The notes under the pieces: generated by a model
Told to the model about the DNA's origin: nothing
Seen by the model: only the letters and a program-made list of their open reading frames with translations
Databases searched by the model: none
Position numbers and translations under genes: made by a program
Assembly (NCBI GenBank): GCA_035533075.1
Contig: DATLUO010000280.1
Coordinates: 1 to 59,364, forward strand
Origin: Pirellulales bacterium
GTDB lineage: Bacteria; Planctomycetota; Planctomycetia; Pirellulales; JAICIG01
Reading direction: 5' to 3'
Length of the DNA: 59,364 bases
Part shown: in pieces, positions 32,863 to 36,918 of the stretch
Layout: every line of letters starts with the position of its first letter
Position numbering within the stretch: position 1 is the stretch's first letter

Positions 32863-33013
32863 GCCCAATGCGTTACTGCGGACGGGTGTCTGTCGATCAT
32901 ACCGTCCATAACGAACGTACCGATGTTTTCGCTCGCGTCGGCTGCGCCAGCCCAGGCGATGGCGTCATGCTATGTTTGCGAAGTCTTGCCAACTCGCTCT
33001 GCGGAAGCCTGCC

Positions 33014-36214
<3,201 letters not shown>

Positions 36215-36309
36215 ACCCAAAGGCGGCCGTGCGGCGCCCGATAGCACGGTGAGGGCATGCAGCTTGCACCAATCAGAACCATTTCGGGTGATTGGGAAAG
36301 GGGGGGTTT

Positions 36310-36918
36310 ATGTCTCGCATGAAGGGCATCGAGCCGAACGAAGCCGGTTGGTTGACTCGGCTGGTTTACTGGTTCGTCCGCCGAAAATTCGTCAAGCTGA
36401 CGGGCAAGGACCGCCTCATCGAACCGGTGAAAGTGTCGGCGCACCACTCGCGGCTGTTCAGGGCCATCGGACAGATGGAGGGCGGGCTGGCGGCCGCACG
36501 CTCGCTGCCTGCTGAACTAAAGCTGCTCGCAAGCCTCCGGGCAGCCACGCTCATCGGCTGCCCGTTCTGAATCGACCTCAACTCTGCCGTGAGCAGAGAG
36601 GAGGGACTGAGCGAACGGCAGTTGGCCGACCTGGCCGAGTTTGAGGAGAGCGCGGCGTTCTCTGATTTGGAGAAGCGGGTGCTGCGTTACGCCGAGGCGT
36701 TGACGCGGACGCCGGCCGACGTTCCGGAGGAACTGTTCAACAGCCTGCGCGAGCATTTCAGTCCGCGGCAGATGGTAGAGTTGACCGCGGCGATCGCCTG
36801 GGAGAATTTCCGGGCACGCTTCAACCGCGGCTTCGGCATCGAGGCGGAGGGTTTTACGGAGGGGGCGGCTTGCCCCGTTCACGTCGCCGCGGGCGTGGCG
36901 CAGCATGGAGACGCCTGA
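36310..36918 (+). CDS. Carboxymuconolactone decarboxylase/AhpD-like protein with in-frame TGA, candidate selenoprotein
   Basis: One reading frame from ATG 36310 to the stop at 36918 is interrupted only by a TGA at 36568-36570. Before it: EPNEAGWLTRLVYWFVRRKF, then SLRAATLIGCPF. After it: IDLNSAVSREEGLSERQLAD, YAEALTRTPADVP, LTAAIAWENFRARFNRGFGI. In the family the block reads GCPWCIDxxS, so the TGA sits at the second Cys of CxxC (C84, position 87). This CxxU pattern is known in AhpD-like selenoproteins. A hairpin fitting a bacterial SECIS follows (36576-36604). Read through, the protein has 202 residues. The alternative is a Cys-to-stop mutation. GGGGGGG lies just before the ATG. No Sec machinery gene is visible in the window. 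Confidence 0.75.
36576..36604 (+). promoter_or_regulatory. Candidate bacterial SECIS stem-loop
   Basis: CCTC, AA, CTCTGC, loop CGTGA, GCAGAG, AG, GAGG: a 6-base-pair upper stem and a 4-base-pair lower stem separated by a small internal loop. The apical loop starts 17 bases after the TGA and has G in its second position, within the usual rule for SelB-bound bacterial elements. Confidence 0.65.

Follow-up and report, generated by a model that had tools for sequence, protein, structure and literature searches.

A predicted AhpD/CMD-fold selenoprotein with a CxxU motif, a conserved SECIS-type hairpin and selenocysteine machinery in a Pirellulales genome

The gene at positions 36310-36918 of the window, the whole 59,364-nucleotide stretch of Pirellulales DNA analysed here, almost certainly encodes a stand-alone thiol-redox selenoprotein of predicted CMD/AhpD fold, in which selenocysteine (Sec) takes the place of the second active-site Cys. 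Computational analysis shows that a UGA, a SECIS-type hairpin and the Sec machinery occur here and are conserved together. The biochemical kind is already known, and the gene is a solid addition to it rather than a new kind. AhpD-like (COG2128) and CMD selenoproteins with a CxxU motif were reported in 2005 in a survey of the Sargasso Sea (PMC1088965), in line with the original prediction's mention of AhpD-like CxxU proteins as an established class, and they also appear in later lists (PMC1794560, PMC9312934, PMC13188914).

The reading frame consists of an ATG, 201 more codons and a terminal TGA, and its sole internal stop is the TGA at codon 87 (Table 1), which agrees with the earlier description of a 202-codon frame interrupted once. 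The sequence around this codon is ...ATLIGCPF-TGA-IDLNSAVSREEG..., and the TGA falls, as had been proposed, at the second Cys of a CxxC motif (GCPF-U-IDLN) within a CMD/AhpD-like domain. Scans for sigma-70 promoters and terminators found nothing.

Table 1. Coordinates of the predicted selenoprotein gene and its parts in the window
Feature	Position	Strand	Description
Purine-rich ribosome-binding-type sequence AAAGGGGGGG	36297..36306	+	Directly 5' of the ATG; read from the sequence
Predicted selenoprotein CDS	36310..36918	+	202 residues, Sec as residue 87; terminal stop TGA at 36916-36918; read-through product has a CMD PF02627 match and an AlphaFold2 model
CMD/AhpD domain	36454..36699	+	PF02627 match spanning one TGA
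In-frame TGA, predicted to be read as selenocysteine	36568..36570	+	U of C84-P-F-U87, the second CxxC position; 49 distinct loci share the TGA, and the remaining homologues examined have Cys
Lower extension of this gene's hairpin	36576..36604	+	CCTC (36576-36579) pairs with GAGG (36601-36604); as read in this gene
Bacterial SECIS-type hairpin	36582..36598	+	Stem CTCTGC (36582-36587)/GCAGAG (36593-36598), loop CGTGA (36588-36592)

The read-through protein matches the Pfam CMD family PF02627 with an E-value of 1.2e-11 and 44.8 bits, relative to a gathering cut-off of 23, and its AlphaFold2 model (pLDDT 88.7) has an all-helical AhpD/CMD fold that matches AhpD/CMD structures. The protein is of the COG2128/YciW type, annotated as 'peroxidase-related'. 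If the TGA were a true stop, the products would be an 86-residue protein and a second protein restarting at GTG 36589, where a 109-residue open reading frame does begin. This arrangement is vanishingly improbable, because it would split both the CMD domain and the CxxC motif, whereas the model forms one domain folded across the TGA; moreover, GTG 36589 falls within the hairpin loop, and some homologues have Cys at this codon, not another stop.

The best solved fold relatives are the debrominase Bmp8 (PDB 6ohi, 6ohj) and the AhpD-like protein PA0269 (2ijc, 2o4d), with query TM-scores of 0.63-0.74. Both are also among the best matches by sequence profile, and their CxxC motif aligns with the CxxU of the window protein, but they are only 21-30% identical to it over the aligned part and have Cys where it has Sec. 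In AhpD, the second Cys is the attacking residue. By analogy, the window protein would be a redox enzyme with Sec as the nucleophile and Cys84 as the resolving residue. In the proposed sequence of events, SelB and Sec-tRNA(UCA) would bind the hairpin that immediately follows the UGA, and the ribosome would then insert Sec at residue 87. As the fold family suggests, the Sec87 selenolate would attack a hydroperoxide or other electrophile, Cys84 would resolve the selenenic intermediate as a selenenyl-sulfide, and a thioredoxin-like or lipoyl donor would reduce the latter. Because of the relationship to Bmp8, a dehalogenation chemistry might be possible; a reading in which the GCPFU(I/M/V/L)D proteins from Acidobacteriota and planctomycete-type bacteria constitute a Sec-dependent CMD subfamily not yet described, with non-peroxidase chemistry such as Sec-dependent reductive dehalogenation, is nevertheless very unlikely.

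The same codon is a TGA in 49 distinct loci, including that of the window, from genomes of the same phylum and of Acidobacteriota. All five full-length relatives from the first round of searching (three from Acidobacteria, one from a Phycisphaerae and one from a Gemmataceae) have it and are 50-67% identical to the window protein; the nearest labelled homologue, at 67% identity, is that of the Gemmataceae metagenome-assembled genome, which accords with the original prediction's description of the gene as planctomycete. Further same-codon TGA homologues were added by the phylum search. Homologues were also checked for random stops elsewhere in the gene: in the Acidobacteriota search, in the class of genome G577, 28 of the 28 fetched stop-bearing loci have TGA at this codon, a count that covers the fetched loci; the further matches of that search include two with TAA or TAG in frame (G583 and G825). 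Wherever a homologue lacks the TGA, the column contains Cys, as in loci L008, L064, L072, L075 and L096 and in each PDB relative shown aligned. An unannotated match on a Cupriavidus plasmid was set aside; it is a Cys homologue, and the record itself is almost without annotation. In the Gemmataceae gene (L007:2533-3101), the reading frame is shifted at a point 5' of the TGA, whether by an error of assembly or by recent decay. One genome has two adjacent copies of the gene (L060 and L078, G198:C13:12447-13675), and the TGA and hairpin are found in both.

Identity between the window protein and its relative L003 is 57% downstream of the TGA and 55% upstream, and third codon positions change most on both sides. 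These observations bear on the possibility that a Cys codon was mutated to, or miscalled as, TGA, leaving the downstream frame untranslated. Such an event could occur in any single draft genome, and the relatives L008 and L064 do have the Cys form. However, the TGA is shared by 49 distinct loci from independent assemblies, protein conservation downstream of it is similar to that upstream, the hairpin covaries and the genome has the full Sec machinery, so that a pseudogene or error is extremely unlikely here. A miscalled TGC or TGT is excluded by the same-codon TGA in dozens of independent assemblies.

In the protein tree, Sec forms from the same phylum and from Acidobacteriota are intermixed, and the window gene groups with four Acidobacteriota sequences with support of 98/94, a grouping that hints at horizontal transfer between Acidobacteriota and the window's phylum. 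The tree, in which few Cys rows are sampled, requires several changes between Sec and Cys.

The hairpin after the TGA has the features originally described for it: a 6-bp stem and a CGTGA loop that begins 17 nt past the TGA and has G as its second base. It is both the minimum free energy (MFE) and the centroid structure, with z = -2.2 relative to dinucleotide shuffles. Among 3,093 TGA triplets in the same genome, 0.7% precede a wobble-free hairpin as good as that of the window gene (at least 6 bp, G as loop base one or two, distance 14-29 nt), and the background of such hairpins after random TGAs varies with stringency from 0.7% to 20%. Since 0.7% of genomic TGAs have an equal hairpin, the hairpin by itself is modest evidence; its position after the CxxC column and its conservation make the evidence strong.

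The hairpin is kept at the 17-nt spacing in 44 of the 49 TGA loci, with compensatory changes. The outermost stem pair is T-A in 18 loci, C-G in 14 and G-C in six, while one inner pair is T-A in 39, G-C in four and C-G in two. In an alignment of 17 sequences, stem covariation is 0.290, relative to a mean of 0.078 for shuffled alignments; none of 500 shuffles equals it and every slid control is lower. This stem-specific covariation is relied on because the MFE z-scores of individual homologues are mixed. Identical residues retain the same codon in 73% of cases over the first 12 codons past the TGA, compared with 47-50% elsewhere. By these sequence comparisons, the hairpin is under selection as RNA. 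In two loci (L066 and L067), the closing pair of the 5-bp stem is lost, and in two other TGA loci (L107 and L108) no hairpin satisfies any of the criteria used. In a divergent group (L069-L071 and L073), the loop is CGTGA or CGGGA, lies 24 nt from the TGA and is closed by an unrelated stem, TTCGCC/GGCGAA or a close variant. Seven Cys homologues were screened in the same way, and none has a qualifying hairpin.

The window's genome contains selA (558 bits), selB (371 bits) and selD (284 bits), all over their curated cut-offs, together with a tRNA-Sec (62 bits) that ARAGORN reports as tRNA-SeC with anticodon tca (UCA); the genome check called for in the original prediction thus found all four components. 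These loci are on other contigs (20 to 124 kb) of the same assembly, with a GC content of 0.64-0.65 relative to 0.63 for the window. Reading of the TGA as Trp or Cys by a near-cognate or suppressor tRNA has nothing specific in its favour beyond the general possibility of TGA read-through. It is hardly credible in a genome with selA, selB, selD and tRNA-Sec, next to a SelB-type hairpin conserved at a fixed spacing. Insertion of Sec is the reading preferred here. Across genomes, selB was found in every TGA-bearing genome tested, compared with 229 of 384 in a sample of the phylum, a comparison that serves as supporting evidence only, since the genomes are not phylogenetically independent. In two fragmented TGA-bearing genomes with selB (G258 and G471), no tRNA-Sec match was found at an E-value of 1e-8. 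In the complete genome G283, where the homologue has Cys, no selB or tRNA-Sec passed the thresholds applied, while selB is present in the other Cys-bearing genomes G345, G418 and G458.

The window protein and the AhpD-like CxxU selenoproteins (COG2128/YciW) have in common the CMD fold, the CxxU motif and a small hairpin after the UGA with G in its loop; those of the surveys, compared here by description, come from marine and other bacteria. Against TIGR01926 (peroxidase-related enzyme), the model for the AhpD-like selenoprotein of PMC13188914, the window protein scores 29.6 bits, below the cut-off of 81.8. Its best model is NCBIfam NF053654, 'YciW-related (seleno)protein' (GroundWater_YciW), which matches residues 1-179 with an E-value of 1.3e-32; the score of 113 bits, relative to a curated cut-off of 310, places it outside the family by NCBI's rule. 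NF053654 also matches each of the 21 sequences in alignment A2. On these scores, the group of the window gene looks like a sister subfamily to NF053654, and the gene is perhaps from an unnamed subfamily of the known AhpD-like CxxU selenoproteins. No paper on this subfamily was found in the open literature searched.

The neighbouring genes differ among the members compared. Upstream in the window (32972-36214, +) is a gene for a protein kinase domain fused to an FGE-sulfatase (SUMF1-type) domain, and molybdenum hydroxylase genes are located past 38.4 kb on the opposite strand. Around the five first-round relatives (L003-L007), the neighbours include LytB, MacB/FtsX, VWA, amidase, PLP enzyme, WD40 and PQQ genes, and a search for neighbours common to these loci and the window found none. 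Because there is no conserved gene neighbourhood, no functional partner, substrate or reductant can be inferred from it.

Other candidate selenoproteins were encountered. Besides the window gene, a single CMD-family gene was found in the window's genome (L080, G000:C32:24641-25039). This gene has a TGA at its CxxU position (NKCPY-TGA-IGSH), followed by a hairpin, TCCTGC-AGTT-GCAGGG, and its TIGR01926 score is over the cut-off; it probably encodes a second selenoprotein of this genome. A different CMD-type protein with a TGA in CHY-TGA-VHYH and a weak NF053654 match is found in three genomes of one family within the same order (L014, L016 and L032 in G059, G040 and G026), whose sequences are near-identical past the TGA; it is a probable selenoprotein. 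In the window's genome, the top two matches to formate dehydrogenase are free of in-frame stops. A weak formate-dehydrogenase-like match (G000:C112:4434-4823, E-value 5.5e-8) has one in-frame TGA and could represent another selenoprotein or a gene fragment.

Among Acidobacteriota the Sec-containing AhpD-like subfamily is common, and it also occurs across the window's own phylum. Such genes would be overlooked or wrongly annotated by standard gene calling, which ends at the UGA. Since the subfamily lies below the current NCBIfam cut-off, the set found here can improve its annotation, and it also supplies a clean covarying SECIS (TCTGCCGTGRGCAGA).
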